DNA from: Obelidium mucronatum
Lineage: Eukaryota; Chytridiomycota; Chytridiomycetes; Chytridiales; Chytriomycetaceae
Reading direction: 5' to 3'
NCBI GenBank assembly: GCA_025765595.1
Contig: JAIVFH010000097.1
Coordinates: 62,001-126,000 of the forward strand
Length of the DNA stretch: 64,000 nucleotides
Under the pieces are notes generated by a model that was not told where the DNA came from, did no database searches, and saw nothing but the letters and a program-made list of their open reading frames with translations. Both the position numbers and the translations under genes were made by a program. This document shows, piece by piece, positions 2,733 to 45,469 of the stretch. How positions within the stretch are numbered: the stretch's first letter is position 1; each line of letters starts with the position of its first letter.

Positions 2733-5700
2733 ATGTTCCGCAACAAATCAGCGATTGCAGTGATTGAATCAGACAGCTCGGCCGACTCGAATATTGCGCA
2801 ACATGGATCTCTGCCACACCCATCCGTTACATCGCCACTATCAGAATCCACGCCAAACATTCCCAAGCCATCACCTGATATGTCAAAATCTCGCTCTGCC
2901 AGTCAAACAAAGCCCTCAAACTTGATACTCAAAGAGGAGGCGCTGTCACCTCCTGCTAGTCCTTCAGAGAATTTCGGGGCAACAACGCCAAAGTCAAAAG
3001 CCGCACTGACTTTCGGACCTTCACCAACAACACCCAAATCAAAAGCGTCGCTCTCATTCAAACCAAAAAGCTCAAAAATCGATGAATATTCAGAAGCGGA
3101 TGGGCTGGCGATAATCCAAGAATCAAATCAAAACCTTGCCAACTCAAAAGGTTTTTTGGAAGCCCCTAGCGCAAGTCCCAATGTTAAAATTAGGAGAAAG
3201 AATTCAACGAAATCAATGAGAAATATGAGGTTGAGCTCCTCGAACCTGGAAGAAACCGCAGTTCCTCGATTTTCCGTTACGAGTTTATTCACCCGAAAAA
3301 GAGAGTCTGCATCAGAAGATGAGGCTGCCGGCTCGGGAGCCAGTAATATCTCTCTTAGCCGTCGCGGTAGATCTCAGGAAAGAGAGGGACCCGGGAATTC
3401 ACGCATTTCACTGTTTGGAAGGCCATCGGCTTCCCGAGCGGTATCACTCCCAGCCGCGCCGCGCCGTTTAAGCGTGTTCCGCCCGTCAGCAGTTAGTACG
3501 CGCGCAATCAATCCGCAAGTGGCGGTGGGAATGAAGTTCGTCGAAGAGCCAGAATCGGAGGAGGACAGTGCTATGGAGGAATATCGCCATAATTCTGTGA
3601 CAGATCAAGTTCTGCGATTATTTAGAAGTCTTGAATTGCCATCGAGCTACCTGCCCGAGTACATCAAACGAAAGCTACCACGGTTTCCGCCGCGCCATTG
3701 TTCCATATATACATCAAATTGAAGAGAAAATAGAAGAGTGGCCTTGGATCGTGGATTTCTGTGAGCATTGGGGGATCTCTCCTATGATGATGGTTTTGGG
3801 GTTGCTTGGTTTGATTTTATTCCGGCGATTGTATCAAAGAAGCGCGAGGCTTATTTCCACGTATATCGGCTTTGTTTATCCGCTCTATAAGACCATCATG
3901 ATGCTTTTATCGCCGACGGATGCGGCAGTTACGCCGAATCGATTAACATACAACCAAACTTCATACACAAATGCCGCGTATGAAATCGGAAAATGGAAAT
4001 CGTACTGTAAGTACCATGGCCTTCAGCTTCAAATAATAGGAAATGCTGAGAACATGTATATATAGGGCCGATATATGGCGGACTTCTACTTCTCGATGAA
4101 TTATCTTCAACTATTCTCACTGTTTATCCCTTCTATTTCACAACCCGCTCTGTTTTCTGCTACTGGCTTTACAATAATAACGGCGCGGACTACATTTTCT
4201 ACAAATATTTGGAGCCGTTGTGGCAAACCGGCGTGGATACAATAACAAACGTGGATCAGGTTGGTTAGCAGTTTTTATTGAAGAGTCTCACTTACAACTC
4301 CATCTACTGTCTAGACTGTAGCTTACGTCACCAACGGGCGAACAGCTTTTGGTGAGTATTTCAGAACAAAAAAAGACAAGCCAATTAAAACAATACAGAT
4401 TATATGAAGGAAAACCAAGAGATAACGCCAGAGGTTGCTCGACATAGACTTATTGCAATATGGTACAAAATCCGAAGCGAAACGCGATTCAACGAATCAT
4501 GCCAAAACATTTTAAAGTCCCTAGTTTTAAACCGTGATAACATTATTGCTTCCAAAGACGAACGGAATCTGCGGGAGGACATTGAGAAATCGCAGGACAA
4601 ACTTGCCCTTTTGGTAGAAGCAGAAAAGCGGTATAAAAAGCTCATCAACTGGTTCGTGGATGAGAATGGATTGCCTGAGGAGCCGCGTAAGAGTTTTTTA
4701 ACACCTTTTTTCGTGCCAACTAATTTCGGTCCAAAATTCCAGCGAATAATGCCAAAATCAATGCACAGCTCAGAATCAAGATTGAGAGAATATCACTTAA
4801 ATCGCATTCCGACATTGTTTCGCCCACAAAACAAAAGTTCGACATTTTTGCTGTGATTACAATCAACGACTTTCCAAAAGCAACGACTTCAAAACTCTCG
4901 TCACAAATAAGAGACGAAACCTTTGAGCTCCCAATTGAAAGACTCAGCAATCGAGTTGAAATTCAAGTCTATCAAACGTCCCTGATTGGCAACCATCAGA
5001 TTATTGGCTTGTGCTGGTTCACAATCGCCGATTTGAAGGAAGAGCTTTTAGACAAGTATTTTTCACTGTTTCCAGTTGACGTTCCGGAGATTTGTTTGAC
5101 CTTGGAGCCGTTTGGATACCTTGTGTTGAAGGCAAATTTAGGTTTGAACTGTACTTCGAAGTGAGCGCCGCCTAACAAAAATGCCGCTCTAGTTGAACTG
5201 ACTAGACAGAAGCAAAATGCTGTCTGCGATGACATTTCATCTGACCTCAAAGATGAGGATATCTATCTAGCCGACGATATCAGAAAAGTGTATGCCAAAA
5301 ACGGGCACCAGTTCCAAATCTTTAAAGCAGTGAGCTCCATCGCTTCTGATATGATTGGAGCAAGATGCTCGGTCTGCGAAGAATCAATGATTGGAGGGAT
5401 GAGGTGCTTTTGCCAAAGTAAGCGACCTTTACTCACTTCCTTTTTTGCTCAACTCAGAGAATTTAGGATGTGCTTTTGTTTGTCACACACGGTGCTTTAA
5501 GGGGGTTCTAACCAAATGTATAAACCATGACGATATCGAAACTGTAATCATTTGATAATTGCAGACCTTGATATTGCCTGTTAACCAGCAACCTTTGAAT
5601 TAGGCCCCGATAGGAACAGATCTAAACACTGGACAATTACTTGACTACAACAAGCCTCACATCTTCGAAACGCGGTCCTTGAATTTGCTCCGATCCTGGT

Positions 5701-39500: not shown

Positions 39501-42500
39501 GGAATAGTCAAGTGTGATTGCCGAGATTGGGATTGAGGTTGCTGATGACGGGGGGTATTCCTGTGTCGTAGCGTTGAAGGGGATGGCGGTTGTTGCTGTT
39601 GTTGGCGAAGCTGTCTCTCCAATTGATCGTCAGAATGCAAGTCTGCTGAGATTGAGTTGTTTCGGATGATTCTTGCTTTCAGCGGCGAGGGAATATGTTG
39701 GGTCCGAGACGCCTAGAGGGTTGGTTGATGAGCTGTGTGGCGATGTGGTTGAAACTTGTACGTACCTAGGCTCAGTGTCAGCCTTGCTCTCGGAACTCTC
39801 AAAAAGAAAAAATAAAAAAAATTTCCATTTTCGAGCCCCAGCGAGAAGGCTGATCGACAATCTTCAAAACCCGCCAACTCCATTTTTTGTAGCGGAAGAA
39901 CCAGCGGATGGATCTTCCTCAAATTCGGCACAGGTGTAGTTCAACTTATTTTATTAGTTTTGGCGGCCTTTTGGCCACGTGTTTCTGACAGTTTCCGTTT
40001 GAATAGTGGGGCCGCGTTTCAGACGTCTCCAGTGGACTCAAAACACGCTATATGCTCCTATGTCTTGTTTTTTTTTCAGTATATCCAATATATCAACATA
40101 TTCTATTACCGTTCGACACGTTGATTTGACCTGGAAATCATTTTTTGTTCTGTCCGGAAACACATCAATGTCACTAGAACATGATCCCATCTTGGAAGTC
40201 TGCATCCTGCTAACCGCCAAGTACTACGAGAGTGCTCCTCGTGACTATCAAATTGCTTGCGTCAAGGCTGTGTTGAATGGGAAAGACTGCGTATTGATTC
40301 AAAGGACCGGCGGAGGCAAGACGTACACTTTTTACCTGTCTCTGCTGGCTCACATGCAAAGAATGGTGGATTCTGGTGATCGAAAATCGGTTTTGTTCAT
40401 TATATCTCCACTCTTGGCAATCATGATTGACCAAATGGCAAATTTGGAGAAATCAGACATACCCCTTCGACCGGCAGCCTTTGGATCATTGGATATGAAC
40501 AAGATTGGGAATTCTTCAACACTGGAATTGCTTGAGAGTGGAAATGTTGATGTTGTGTGGATGACTCCGGAATTTTTAACAAGTATTCTTGGAGGAAAGG
40601 ACATGAAGATACTCAAAGTCATTCAAAAATTTGCGTTCGCGATTGCAGTAGACGAATGGCACGAAATGACCAACGCTGGAGATGTTTGGAGACAAGACTA
40701 TTTGAATCTGGAGAACATTCGTGTTCATTTCAAGGATATTCCTTTCATTGCAGCTTCAGCAACGGTTCCAAAGTCAATGTACAACAAGATGTGCAATCGA
40801 CTGAGATTGAGACCAGGATTTGTCGAAATTATTGGGTGTGTGGATCGGCCAAACTTGTTTTACGATGTCCAGGAGCGGAAGGAGATGCAAAAGGATCTTG
40901 GATTCATCAAAATAGCTCTCGAAACAAAAACTTTTGATCCGAGTGTATTTGTTCTGGTCCTCTTCTGCGATTCAAAGACCACACTGAACAAGATTTACAC
41001 GTACCTTTCAGCTGGCATCTCCAATTACCCCCCCGTGCTCACTCACTTAACTGCCTTGTCTTCGGAATCCCACAAAAACGCAGTACTAGGCCTGATTCGA
41101 GAAAACCCTAATCAATTGAAGGTTATTTGCACCACTCAAATGCTGGGCCAGGGCTTGGACCATCCTTCAATTAGAACTGTTGTTCATTACAAGACTCCAG
41201 TATCATTTTGCAATGCTGCCCAGGAATTTGGGAGGGCTGGAAGGGATGGATTGCCCAGTCGTTGTCTCTTCTTCCACTCCCTCCAGGATTTATCAGACAA
41301 GAAAAGCGATTCTGTGGCGTTGAAGGAGAGTAAGGCCACCAACAGAGAGGTGTACTCTCTCTTTGCATCAACACCTTCAACTTCAAATCCAGTTTGCCGA
41401 AGGAAGGTTCTTTTGGGGTACTTTAAGGGGCTTGATCCGGTACCAAATGACCGGTGCTGTGATGCTTGTGAGTCTCGTAAACCAACTATAGCACAGTCTG
41501 GCTTGATTCCATATGTTTCCAACACTCCATTGCTCAAACAAAAAAGGCACATTCGCTCGCAATGTGGATTGACAGTTGAAGAATCTATCAAACTGTTTTC
41601 GGAGCTGTCAGAATGGCGGGAAAGCTGTTTGATTGGAGTACCATGGGAGTTGGGACTTTGCAGATTCCCACAGGAAGTCATCGATGATATTTGCAGAGAT
41701 CTGAAGGGTGTGGTTCTCGACTCATTTGTTGATTGGATTGATAGTTTCGAAGACAAATGGAAAATTGAAGCAAAAACACTTGTTGTTGCATATTTGAAGG
41801 AGTTAAAGAAAATGCCGAATTGACCAAATAAAAAGTAACGCAATTATTATTTCGTTAAATCAAAAATTTCAACACCATCCTCGTCAAACACCCGTTCATC
41901 TAACTCCTCAATATCATCCTCATCCCCAGATCCACAAAAAAAGTTCTTCAGTTGCCGAGCAATATATCCATCCTTGACTAACTCCTTGTAACCCACTTCC
42001 AGCACAGGTTTAAAGGCATATTCACCCACTTTGAAGTAGCCTTGTACTCGATTCATCTGAGATTTGACATCAAACATCATGGTCTCCTTGTCTTTTTTTG
42101 TATCCACGTCGTGATGATATGCTCGTCTTCTTGGAATGTCCAAGTGGTCAAAAAGAGAGCTAGTCAAGCTACAGACATGAGATGCAGTCATAGAAATTGT
42201 TTGGGTATGATTCCAGTTGCGGTTACTTCCTGCTTTGGATTGAACTGACTTCATGGCAAGGACTTCATGCTCCATTCCCAAGTCATTGGGAAAAAAGGAG
42301 TTCACAAGTCCTTTTGAGTTTAAAAACGCGTTTTGTACGCATATTCCTCGTTCCCGAGGAGTCATCATTGATAAATCCCACAACTGACGCACAGTTCCCT
42401 GTGCGTATTTTTTGGAGTGTCTCTTGAGCAATGGCAAGAACAGCTTATGCATAATATTCACGCCTTCTCCGTCACCATAGCGAATGCAATCGTAGAAGAC

Positions 42501-45024
42501 CAATGATTGAAGTCGCAAGCGTATAAATTGCAGCATGTAGTTGCGGAAAGGGTGGGTTTCCAAAGGAGAATACTCCGTAGCACGCTTTCCTTTGTTTACA
42601 ATCGGCTTCAATTGATAGACTGCTCTGTTAACATGAAGCAGGAGAGTATTCACAATGTAGTCCAGCTTTTCTTGACTACCTGACTGCAGTTCCGACAGGT
42701 CATTGGCGTAATCCACTGTAATAGAGTCCGCAAGTGCAACAACATAGGCGCTAAGGGAGCCGTTTAGCACATCTTGCATCTCGTAGAATGTCGCTTTCTT
42801 GGCATTGATATTCTTGTTTTGAATTCGAGCAAACCAAGCAATAGTTCCTGGAAAGGATGGCTCCCAGCCCATGGCGGAGACTTGGGCTTTATCAACGGCC
42901 ATTCCAAGATGAAAATCTCCATAGATGGGCATCAGGTGTTGCAGCTTCTCAACATCAGAGCTACCCCACTCATGTTTGCGCTCATTGATTGCAGAGCGAA
43001 CAGATGTGACTGTCCCCAAATCTCCAAATAAAGGGACTTTTATACATTTGTTGTGCGGAATATTGAAGTCTTTAGTGTATTGCTCCCCAATCCGAATGGA
43101 TCCATTGGTAGTCATTTCTTGTTCGTCCATAATGGGCAAAGGCAGGATACCAGTTGGTCTATGGGGGCGGTTAGGATGGTTGTGCCTTGAAGATAGGTCT
43201 TTGAACTCCGCGCATTCTTTGATGATGAGATTGTACAATTCATTAAAAGTCTGAGAATGATACCAGGCCAACTCGCAAGCGTCGGCAACAATATTGGATG
43301 GTGATGGCGGCTTAATTGGCACAGCGGGTTGTAGCATTGCTGGATCATGTGTGATAAGAATGAATCCACGCAGCGTTTGGGACACAAGCTGGTTTTGGTT
43401 TCCTTGAGTCTTTTGGTATGTCTTGTTGTATCGCTCCACATTGTCGTGGATCAAGAGAATACTATTTGAACGGAATGTTTTTGGAATCAGATCGAGAGCT
43501 TGCTGTTTCATGTCAACAAGCCGGTCAAGAATTGTATCATTTCCAACTGATACACCCATACTATTCATTAGTTTTACGAGATTCTGCGAAGCGCCATTAG
43601 AGTACAAGATCAAACCAATCTCCGACTGCAGAAGATTGTACTTCTGAGATGCAGAAAAAAGAATGATTCCAAGGATGAGAATAAGCTTTGGTTTTTCATG
43701 TCCAACAAGCATTCCGATGAGAGACGAGATAAAGGGCGCACTGGCCTCCCAAGATTCGAGAAGCACACTGACATTCAAGCGGTTAACAACGGTTGGAGCA
43801 GCAATATCAACCTTCAGGCATTCTTTGATTTCGATTTTCGAGAGAGCAGATGCATTATTCAAAAGAAAATCGCGTTGCTTTGGAAGAGGCAAAGCGTTGA
43901 AGAGATTCTGCAACAGTTGCAGCTGGTCATCAATGGACAACATGGCCACTCGAGCCTCAATTTCCGGAAATTTGAAGCTTGCTTTTTGTGCAGCCGCCGA
44001 TTTTACCGCTGCCATTGCTGCACGGAATTTTGCAGAATGCTCTGATTGTCCAGTTGCACGTAAATGAGTTGTGAAGGATGATCCTAAATTGGCATCCCGA
44101 GAATCGTTCAATCTCTCTTCCAAACTCATGGACGGGATTGGGCAACCCATTTGATGGGTCGAAAATGGATTTGATGTGTTTCTTGTTGGGCGTTGATTGG
44201 AAAGAGGAGTTTCCAGTCCAACTGATGCCTTTTTGCGGCTGTGGCTACGTTCAGGTGAAGTTTCGGACTCAGTACCGACGTCGCTTGGATCTTGAGTCAG
44301 TGGGTCGGCCTTGCCCCGAAACATCCCGCGGCTGTCGCGTATCATAAATGCAACTGTTGATTTCAGTTGAGTTGATGTGTTTCCGGACAGAACAAAAAAT
44401 GATTTCCAGGTCAAATCAACGTGTCGAACGGTAATAGAATATGTTGATATATTGGATATACTGAAAAAAAAACAAGACATAGGAGCATATAGCGTGTTTT
44501 GAGTCCACTGGAGACGTCTGAAACGCGGCCCCACTATTCAAACGGAAACTGTCAGAAACACGTGGCCAAAAGGCCGCCAAAACTAATAAAATAAGTTGAA
44601 CTACACCTGTGCCGAATTTGAGGAAGATCCATCCGCTGGTTCTTCCGCTACAAAAAATGGAGTTGGCGGGTTTTGAAGATTGTCGATCAGCCTTCTCGCT
44701 GGGGCTCGAAAATGGAAATTTTTTTTATTTTTTCTTTTTGAGAGTTCCGAGAGCAAGGCTGACACTGAGCCTAGTACGTACCTTCTTTGCAGCTTTTGCC
44801 ACAGACAACACATATCTTCGAATCAGATACCCCAAATAGAGAGTAGCTGCAATAATCAACACCACGAATCGTTCAGCGCCAGGTTCATCCAAAGGAGCAG
44901 TCTCAATATTAGCCTTCTGGCTGTGGCTGTAATCGTTAGACCGCGAGGACAAAGGAAGAACGGGATCAAAGAAGGATGATGCTGGATCTGCATTCGGGCA
45001 GTAGCATTGGGACGATGACGACAT
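36510..45024 (-). CDS. Membrane-anchored, largely disordered protein; host of the intronic transposon
   Basis: Exons 45024-44782, 39712-39292, 39226-37854 and 37805-36510 join in phase. The first exon encodes a Ser-rich start and one membrane helix (FVVLIIAATLYLGYLI) followed by the basic RRYVLSVAKAAKK. The remaining ~1,000 residues are Ser/Thr/Pro/Gln/Asn-rich, with a His-rich run near 36880-36930. I recognise no domain. Intron 1 (39713-44781, 5,069 bases) contains the complete DNA transposon. Without it and one target duplicate the intron would be 53 bases, the usual size here. The donor AAG|GTACGT and acceptor CTCTAG are both intact, so splicing of the full intron is possible. Confidence 0.75.
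39758..39766. repeat. Target-site duplication, left copy
   Basis: GTACGTACC directly before the left end of the element. On the host gene's strand it reads GGTACGTAC. Confidence 0.85.
39767..40168 (+). repeat. Left terminal inverted repeat
   Basis: 402 bases, apparently identical to the reverse complement of 44372-44773. It contains a promoter-sized AT/GC-mixed region, an ATG at 40006 that opens a frame into the helicase gene, and a TTTTTTTTTCAG acceptor-like stretch at about 40068-40079. The repeat ends within the ATG at 40168. Confidence 0.92.
40006..41823 (+). CDS. RecQ-like DNA helicase of the transposon
   Basis: The core begins at ATG 40168, just after the inverted repeat; the frame is open from 40006, giving 53 extra residues. 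Motifs: VLIQRTGGGKTYTF (Walker A, RecQ-type), FAIAVDEWHEM (motif II, DEWH where RecQ has DEAH), FIAASATVP (motif III), VICTTQMLGQGLDHPSIRTV (motif V) and EFGRAGRDGLPSRC (motif VI). A partial Cys cluster follows (RCCDACESRK). The size of 551-605 residues fits a helicase core plus RecQ zinc region, with no HRDC domain. It probably unwinds DNA during transposition or replication of the element. Transcription converges on the second gene. Confidence 0.88.
   Translation: MGPRFRRLQWTQNTLYAPMSCFFFSISNISTYSITVRHVDLTWKSFFVLSGNTSMSLEHDPILEVCILLTAKYYESAPRDYQIACVKAVLNGKDCVLIQRTGGGKTYTFYLSLLAHMQRMVDSGDRKSVLFIISPLLAIMIDQMANLEKSDIPLRPAAFGSLDMNKIGNSSTLELLESGNVDVVWMTPEFLTSILGGKDMKILKVIQKFAFAIAVDEWHEMTNAGDVWRQDYLNLENIRVHFKDIPFIAASATVPKSMYNKMCNRLRLRPGFVEIIGCVDRPNLFYDVQERKEMQKDLGFIKIALETKTFDPSVFVLVLFCDSKTTLNKIYTYLSAGISNYPPVLTHLTALSSESHKNAVLGLIRENPNQLKVICTTQMLGQGLDHPSIRTVVHYKTPVSFCNAAQEFGRAGRDGLPSRCLFFHSLQDLSDKKSDSVALKESKATNREVYSLFASTPSTSNPVCRRKVLLGYFKGLDPVPNDRCCDACESRKPTIAQSGLIPYVSNTPLLKQKRHIRSQCGLTVEESIKLFSELSEWRESCLIGVPWELGLCRFPQEVIDDICRDLKGVVLDSFVDWIDSFEDKWKIEAKTLVVAYLKELKKMPN
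41847..44534 (-). CDS. DUF6589-like putative transposase of the transposon
   Basis: An intact frame of 895 codons from 44534; an internal ATG at 44345 lies just inside the element beyond the inverted repeat. A Ser/Pro-rich start and a helical region lead to ILLIHDNVERYNKTYQKTQG, then KVPLFGDLGTVTSVRSAINE, PIYGDFHLGMAVDKAQVSAM and late VFYDCIRYGDGEGVNIM and SNRNWNHTQTI. The order of Asp-containing blocks and the GDxxT-RSA-ERK / GDFH pattern resemble the fungal DUF6589 family, often found in mobile or repeated genes. A DDE/RNase-H-like catalytic role is inferred. It ends in an acidic tail. Confidence 0.65.
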   Translation of the reverse strand: MGPRFRRLQWTQNTLYAPMSCFFFSISNISTYSITVRHVDLTWKSFFVLSGNTSTQLKSTVAFMIRDSRGMFRGKADPLTQDPSDVGTESETSPERSHSRKKASVGLETPLSNQRPTRNTSNPFSTHQMGCPIPSMSLEERLNDSRDANLGSSFTTHLRATGQSEHSAKFRAAMAAVKSAAAQKASFKFPEIEARVAMLSIDDQLQLLQNLFNALPLPKQRDFLLNNASALSKIEIKECLKVDIAAPTVVNRLNVSVLLESWEASAPFISSLIGMLVGHEKPKLILILGIILFSASQKYNLLQSEIGLILYSNGASQNLVKLMNSMGVSVGNDTILDRLVDMKQQALDLIPKTFRSNSILLIHDNVERYNKTYQKTQGNQNQLVSQTLRGFILITHDPAMLQPAVPIKPPSPSNIVADACELAWYHSQTFNELYNLIIKECAEFKDLSSRHNHPNRPHRPTGILPLPIMDEQEMTTNGSIRIGEQYTKDFNIPHNKCIKVPLFGDLGTVTSVRSAINERKHEWGSSDVEKLQHLMPIYGDFHLGMAVDKAQVSAMGWEPSFPGTIAWFARIQNKNINAKKATFYEMQDVLNGSLSAYVVALADSITVDYANDLSELQSGSQEKLDYIVNTLLLHVNRAVYQLKPIVNKGKRATEYSPLETHPFRNYMLQFIRLRLQSLVFYDCIRYGDGEGVNIMHKLFLPLLKRHSKKYAQGTVRQLWDLSMMTPRERGICVQNAFLNSKGLVNSFFPNDLGMEHEVLAMKSVQSKAGSNRNWNHTQTISMTASHVCSLTSSLFDHLDIPRRRAYHHDVDTKKDKETMMFDVKSQMNRVQGYFKVGEYAFKPVLEVGYKELVKDGYIARQLKNFFCGSGDEDDIEELDERVFDEDGVEIFDLTK
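44372..44773 (-). repeat. Right terminal inverted repeat
   Basis: Reverse-complement partner of 39767-40168. Its ATG at 44534 (minus strand) opens a frame into the DUF6589-like gene. Confidence 0.92.
44774..44782. repeat. Target-site duplication, right copy (contains the host splice donor)
   Basis: GTACGTACC directly after the right end. On the minus strand it supplies the last exon base and the donor GTACGT of host intron 1. Confidence 0.85.
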
Positions 45025-45097: not shown

Positions 45098-45469
45098 TTA
45101 TTGATTCTTCTTTTTAGCCCCACTTTCTTCCGTCTGCTTTTTGGATTTAAATAAATCCACGATTGGTTGGACGAGGCGGTTGATTGGTGCTGCAACGGAA
45201 GGCAGCACTGCCTTTGCGATTTGATATCGGATGGGCGCTAGTGCGCGATTTGCTAAATAAGCCAAAAGCGTTATTCCGCCCTTGTCAAAAACATAGGCAA
45301 AGAAGGTGAGGTGGTACTGGCGACATAAGGCGGACGGATCAACGTCGAAGTGACGGAAGGCAAGGTACAGGGCAAAAAAGCTGATCCATCCGAGAATCTG
45401 AAGAACAATAATCCCAGCAGCGCCGTGGTTTTGCAGCAGAGACGAGAGGGCTTTTTGCGGAGCGTCCAT
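45098..45469 (-). CDS. FAM210-like (DUF1279) small mitochondrial-type membrane protein
   Basis: A single exon of 123 residues. LLQNHGAAGIIVLQILGWIS and FFALYLAFRHFDVDPSALCR give one or two hydrophobic helices. The DUF1279-type end LLAYLANRALAPIRYQIAKA VLPSVA matches FAM210A/B relatives, which sit in the mitochondrial inner membrane. A Lys-rich tail (KSKKQTEESGAKKKNQ) follows. It is divergent from verprolin with about 45 bases between starts. A decayed 5' copy lies at 33411-33577. Confidence 0.7.
   Translation of the reverse strand: MDAPQKALSSLLQNHGAAGIIVLQILGWISFFALYLAFRHFDVDPSALCRQYHLTFFAYVFDKGGITLLAYLANRALAPIRYQIAKAVLPSVAAPINRLVQPIVDLFKSKKQTEESGAKKKNQ

Follow-up and report, generated by a model that had tools for sequence, protein, structure and literature searches.

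The window (the whole stretch of DNA analysed, 64,000 nucleotides) contains a DNA transposon of 5007 bp at positions 39767-44773, which carries a RecQ-like helicase gene on the forward strand and a gene for a DUF6589 protein on the reverse strand (Table 1). The two genes are convergent, both frames are unbroken and their stop codons lie 23 bp apart; the left repeat ends at 40168, on the A of the helicase start codon. A preliminary description of this DNA had proposed an intact DNA transposon with identical-looking 402-bp inverted repeats, a target duplication and two unbroken convergent genes. The two arms were found to be exact reverse complements, GTACGTACC lies on both flanks as a 9-bp duplication, and frame analysis confirmed both genes. 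The open frames, the further copies and the empty sites described below likewise bear out an intact, autonomous-looking element. The window element is a complete, autonomous-looking representative of a very young DNA transposon family. Its 17-base terminus occurs 50 times in the genome at no more than one mismatch, 47 of these being exact, and the reversed control pattern gave no occurrence.

Table 1. Features of the transposon and its insertion site in the window
Feature	Position	Strand	Basis
Target-site duplication, left copy, GTACGTACC	39758..39766	.	read next to element end
Left terminal inverted repeat, 402 bp, starts TAGGCTCAGTGTCAGCC	39767..40168	+	arm alignment
RecQ-like SF2 helicase gene, 551 aa	40168..41823	+	frame and profile/structure-sequence matches; also open from ATG 40060
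DUF6589 gene, 832 aa, putative DDE-type transposase	41847..44345	-	frame and Pfam; also open from ATG 44480
Candidate catalytic Glu, MEH motif, E692 of 832	42270..42272	-	invariant in six rows; putative role
Candidate second catalytic Asp, GD motif, D442 of 832	43020..43022	-	invariant in six rows; putative role
Candidate first catalytic Asp, DN motif, D301 of 832	43443..43445	-	invariant in six rows; putative role
Right terminal inverted repeat, 402 bp	44372..44773	-	exact complement of left arm
Target-site duplication, right copy, GTACGTACC	44774..44782	.	9 bp

The predicted helicase matched the Pfam domains DEAD (1.2e-19) and Helicase_C (2e-8) over their cut-offs, and its closest solved relatives were the Bloom helicase (1.8e-29) and bacterial RecQ. 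Both domains are present in all six families compared throughout this work, namely the window family and five further families of the same genome. RecQ_Zn_bind reached 17 bits in the window helicase against a cut-off of 25 bits, and was seen in three of the six families as weak matches (E up to 0.1). The RecQ-like helicase of the preliminary description therefore stands as regards its DEAD and Helicase_C domains and its Bloom and RecQ relatives, with the RecQ zinc-binding region below the cut-off. No nuclease family was found among the Pfam matches of the helicase or of the DUF6589 protein.

The likeness of the second gene to DUF6589, also noted earlier, is upheld by a Pfam match covering residues 415-789 of an 877-aa frame (2e-36). 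Seven acidic residues are invariant across the six families, and among them is a plausible D-D-E set, D301, D442 and E692; for the comparison of D301-N302, the C180 and C5:189k rows were taken from separate upstream frames (contigs of the assembly are given as C numbers). The settings of D301-N302, D442 and E692 are ones that we take to resemble those of DDE enzymes. This triad is put forward as a proposal because four other acidic residues (E453, D670, D733 and E828 in 877-residue numbering) are equally invariant. On sequence grounds the DUF6589 protein is consistent with a DDE transposase. A single-sequence structure model had a pLDDT of 35 and was unusable for judging an RNase H fold. A PDB sequence search of solved structures returned nothing below E 0.49 for the DUF6589 protein, and no Pfam family beyond DUF6589 was matched by more than one of the six members. 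Protein searches gave no match at E 0.001 among 7991 scored candidates with the DUF6589 protein, or among 7992 with alignment A1. No hit was confirmed in viral contigs scanned with each of the two proteins, or in prokaryotic genome contigs scanned with the DUF6589 protein.

The genome (48.3 Mb in 694 contigs) was searched for further copies; counts from this search are lower bounds. At least 34 matches to the repeat arm were found, 26 of which pair up as 13 full-length copies; the remaining eight, on C182, C128, C33, C137 and C412, belong to copies that are older or incomplete. Ten of the full-length copies, the window copy among them, are identical across 5007 bp, those on C158 and C56 have one substitution each, and the C15 copy is 5005 bp long with 19 mismatches. 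All 13 retain open frames for the two genes. Duplications of 9 bp, each of different sequence, flank 11 of the 13. No target duplication was present at the other two, C283 and C25, for which recombination between copies or misassembly would account; at these loci (L033 and L039, both identical full-length copies) the 9 bp adjacent to the ends are mismatched between the two as well. A genome search for the ends and both proteins, as suggested in the preliminary description, has thus returned at least 13 full-length copies as well as further DUF6589 and helicase loci. With 13 copies, 11 of them bearing their own distinct 9-bp duplication, the inverted repeats are not due to chance or to a one-off assembly artefact.

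Several rearranged derivatives were observed alongside these copies. At C182:34000-43999 (L044), two truncated element halves (element positions 3044-5007) face one another with a spacer of 1136 bp between them, which itself has inverted, similar ends about 135 bp long; this large palindrome is either real or an assembly product. A nested element with ends CACCCGGTC...GACCGGGTG and an 8-9-bp duplication lies inside the inverted repeat of an older copy (L046, 2442-3584). An insert of about 445 bp with ends GGTGAGAAC...GTTCTCACC is present at L045 4579-5023 and L046 5561-6004, and because it occupies the same element position in both, these two older copies share a dead subfamily ancestor. At C376:13316-13459, facing 17-base termini are only 144 bp apart, likely a miniature non-autonomous derivative.

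For each of the 11 sites with a duplication, an empty-site query was made by joining its two flanks of 80 bases with one duplication omitted. For nine sites the same assembly returned an element-free contig joining the flanks, at 89-99% identity. These were C290 and C235 for the window site, C107 and C254 for C606, C46 for C368, C106 for C277, C117 for C158, C542 for C56, C391 for C22, C127 for C12 and C230 for C15. The same joined-flank search gave no element-free sequence for the C95 and C16 sites. Eight of the 11 element-free sequences contain the exact 9-mer once, including C290 and C235 for the GTACGTACC of the window. C46 and C542 are one base off the 9-mer of their site, and C230 shows two substitutions and a gap of 3 bp, explicable by divergence or as a footprint. 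The empty-site check proposed earlier has therefore been answered from other contigs of the same assembly, and because nine of the 11 sites have such contigs, insertion was precise and recent. The element-free contigs are read as other haplotypes, though diverged duplicates are conceivable. Since the empty-site sequences differ by up to 11% from the flanks and ten element copies by 0%, the burst was very recent. The window and C606 sites have two empty-site contigs each, which points to at least three haplotypes or to a local duplication.

The repeats themselves contain an ATG at 40060 and its mirror at 44480, from which the frames would encode 587 aa (helicase) and 877 aa (DUF6589) and give both proteins one 36-residue N-terminus. 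In the five older partial copies this ATG is ATC in C182 (twice) and C128, deleted in C33, and kept in C137, but the sequence downstream differs in the last. A T-rich run followed by CAG is retained in the four older copies without the deletion. A common N-terminus encoded by the repeats is thought unlikely, the ATG being lost in four of the five copies. The likelier products are proteins of 832 aa (ATG 44345, reverse strand) and 551 aa (ATG 40168, forward strand); the 895 codons given earlier for the former were counted from stop to stop. Because of the state of the ATG in the older copies, it is more likely that the repeats supply each gene with its promoter and its leader, in which there may be an intron.

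Between the C15 copy and the window, the helicase gene has two amino-acid and six silent changes (pN/pS 0.10) and the DUF6589 gene three and four (pN/pS 0.21), values that rest on small numbers, eight and seven changes respectively. In C15, the one intact variant copy, the low pN/pS suggests that both genes matter. The older partial copies on C182, C128 and C33 gave pN/pS values of 0.32-0.47 against the window, and four of their six gene pieces contain frameshifting indels.

In the genome as a whole, 22 DUF6589 matches were found, comprising the 13 full-length copies, the two C182 truncated halves (which match DUF6589 without a helicase part) and seven further loci, of which three are on C5 (two being copies of one family) and one each on C93, C66, C180 and C179 (the last a fragment). 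At all seven, the DUF6589 match is followed, past its 3' end, by a helicase match on the other strand, so that the genes are convergent. Identity to the window proteins over the five further families is 22-33% for DUF6589 and 26-37% for the helicase, and over all family pairs and both proteins it is 18-37%. Pairwise divergence of the two proteins is correlated (Pearson 0.84; 6 of 720 label permutations as high, six families); the distance correlation alone was used because both gene trees are poorly resolved. Precise insertions and consistent pairing with the helicase tie DUF6589 to transposition.

Target duplications of 9 bp also occur in these families. The C5 family has two 5241-bp copies that differ by a single base, each with its own duplication (AACTGAAGT and ATTCTTAAT), and others flank C93 (TAACTCTAT) and C180 (ACAAAAACC); inspection of the flanks found no clear duplication at C66 or C5:189k. 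The terminus TAGGCTCAGTGTCAGCC is common to the window element, one C5 family and C66, and the other termini are TAGGCTCG (C93), TAGGACGCCC (C5:189k) and TTGTCTGAATG (C180). The inverted repeats measure 281 bp at C93 and 457 and 459 bp in the two C5 copies; at the other two loci the stretch examined cuts them short, which gives a minimum of 253 bp for C66 and, for C180, two pieces that add up to about 290 bp. At C5:189k the ends match over a short length, and the search showed no inverted repeat reaching 30 bp. In this most diverged family (C5:187600-193600, L054) the inverted repeat extends outward into the flanks, and a weak match to a PHD finger (E 0.016), seen in one of the six DUF6589 members, is apparently at the C-terminus of this member. 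At C66:110382-110415 (L056), the element bears two tandem copies of TAGGCTCAGTGTCAGCC at its left end, possibly the trace of an unusual joining event.

Profile matches in the host genome (Fungal_trans 30, fungal chitin synthase 19, radial spoke 6) fit a flagellated, chytrid-like fungus. AcademH, described by Kojima (2020, Mob DNA 11:15) as cited in other papers, is reportedly a lineage of the Academ superfamily found in fungi and animals, with a helicase and 9-10-bp duplications. Statements below on described elements are taken from excerpts of the papers cited. AcademH duplications are of 9 or 10 bp and those of AcademX of 3 or 4 bp, a difference that seems tied to the presence of a helicase or a nuclease (PMC10045372). 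DEAD and Helicase_C domains are attributed to the helicases of AcademH and KolobokH, and AcademH is described as low-copy and named from Basidiomycota, Ascomycota and Mucoromycota (PMC10799480). The window element resembles AcademH as excerpted in its helicase, 9-bp duplications and fungal host, and differs in that its family has 13 full copies and its host looks chytrid-like. An AcademH element should also encode a DDD/E transposase, and here D301, D442 and E692 are candidates for such residues. No report of a chytrid AcademH was found in the literature searched, by which its absence is not proven; nor was the term DUF6589 found there. Most probably the element is a new family, unusually young and intact, of a type already described, AcademH, with which it was compared by description; its filing there is provisional, resting on the helicase, the 9-bp duplication and the fungal host. 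The opinion in the preliminary description that no well-described class fits is thus probably wrong, since AcademH has both a helicase and 9- or 10-bp duplications. Its proposal of a new autonomous family holds for an autonomous-looking new family, the kind of which is probably known already. AcademX would belong to the same superfamily if the AcademH reading holds, but the nuclease and short duplications given for it in the excerpts are not matched here, where duplications are 9 bp and no nuclease Pfam match was found. Helitrons, which likewise carry a helicase, were rejected because they are described in the excerpt as having neither inverted repeats nor target duplication (PMC4522978), both of which the window element has. 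The telomere-linked RecQ helicases of fungi are, as far as the source excerpts go, also repeated RecQ-like genes in fungal genomes; they are subtelomeric repeats, and this reading was rejected, as here the gene is part of an element that has both inverted repeats and target duplications.

We consider it probable that the element is an autonomous, recently mobile DNA transposon of AcademH type. A new superfamily, in which a DUF6589 transposase unrelated to Academ has independently joined a RecQ-like helicase, would agree with DUF6589 being the one Pfam family shared by members and with the silence of the searched literature on that word. Academ was compared by description, which leaves room for such a superfamily, but the lack of a sequence comparison is not evidence of difference, and the helicase, fungal host and 9-bp duplication are as given for AcademH in the excerpts (PMC10045372, PMC10799480); we regard this reading as unlikely. 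A fuller version, in which a separate DUF6589 superfamily has twin-promoter repeats, an obligatory helicase and helicase-assisted, possibly replicative movement that explains the burst of identical copies, is similarly doubtful.

That both genes are passengers of a non-autonomous repeat moved by the enzymes of another element is conceivable insofar as both proteins are known here from sequence alone. Both genes are nevertheless open in every full-length copy, their pairing is kept across families down to 18% protein identity, and pN/pS is low for both in C15, which makes passenger status very improbable. Least probable is a KolobokH-type element with a Kolobok transposase and a RecQ helicase. 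KolobokH combines such genes in fungi only, and one rhodophyte Kolobok has RecQ on the complementary strand, as far as the excerpt of PMC9587614 goes; the TTAA-specific 4-bp duplications and 5'-RR termini given there for Kolobok are contradicted by the varied 9-bp duplications and TA-starting ends found here.

Under the AcademH reading, the DUF6589 protein would be a transposase of DDE type. It would bind to the long inverted repeats, cleave the element ends and join these to a target cut with a 9-bp stagger. The role of the RecQ-like helicase may be to unwind branched DNA at the ends or in the joined intermediate, and this unwinding would let gap filling or replication finish the insertion. 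The identical repeats would have two functions, as ends to which the transposase binds and as a pair of promoters that drive one gene from each side, with the genes meeting tail to tail. To our knowledge, no reason is established for a DNA transposon to have a RecQ-like helicase of its own. The element could serve to test the role of a RecQ-like helicase in transposition, with ten identical full-length copies whose genes are open, matching empty-site sequences, another young family, and older, dead copies for comparison.

The window insertion may disrupt a host gene on its haplotype. When the flanks are joined at 39766/44783, a 116-codon frame on the reverse strand crosses the insertion point, and AAG|GTACGT at the junction resembles a 5' splice site. 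A FAM210-like gene at 45101-45469 on the reverse strand adjoins the insertion (E 0.0002, with 22.2 bits falling short of the 26-bit cut-off).
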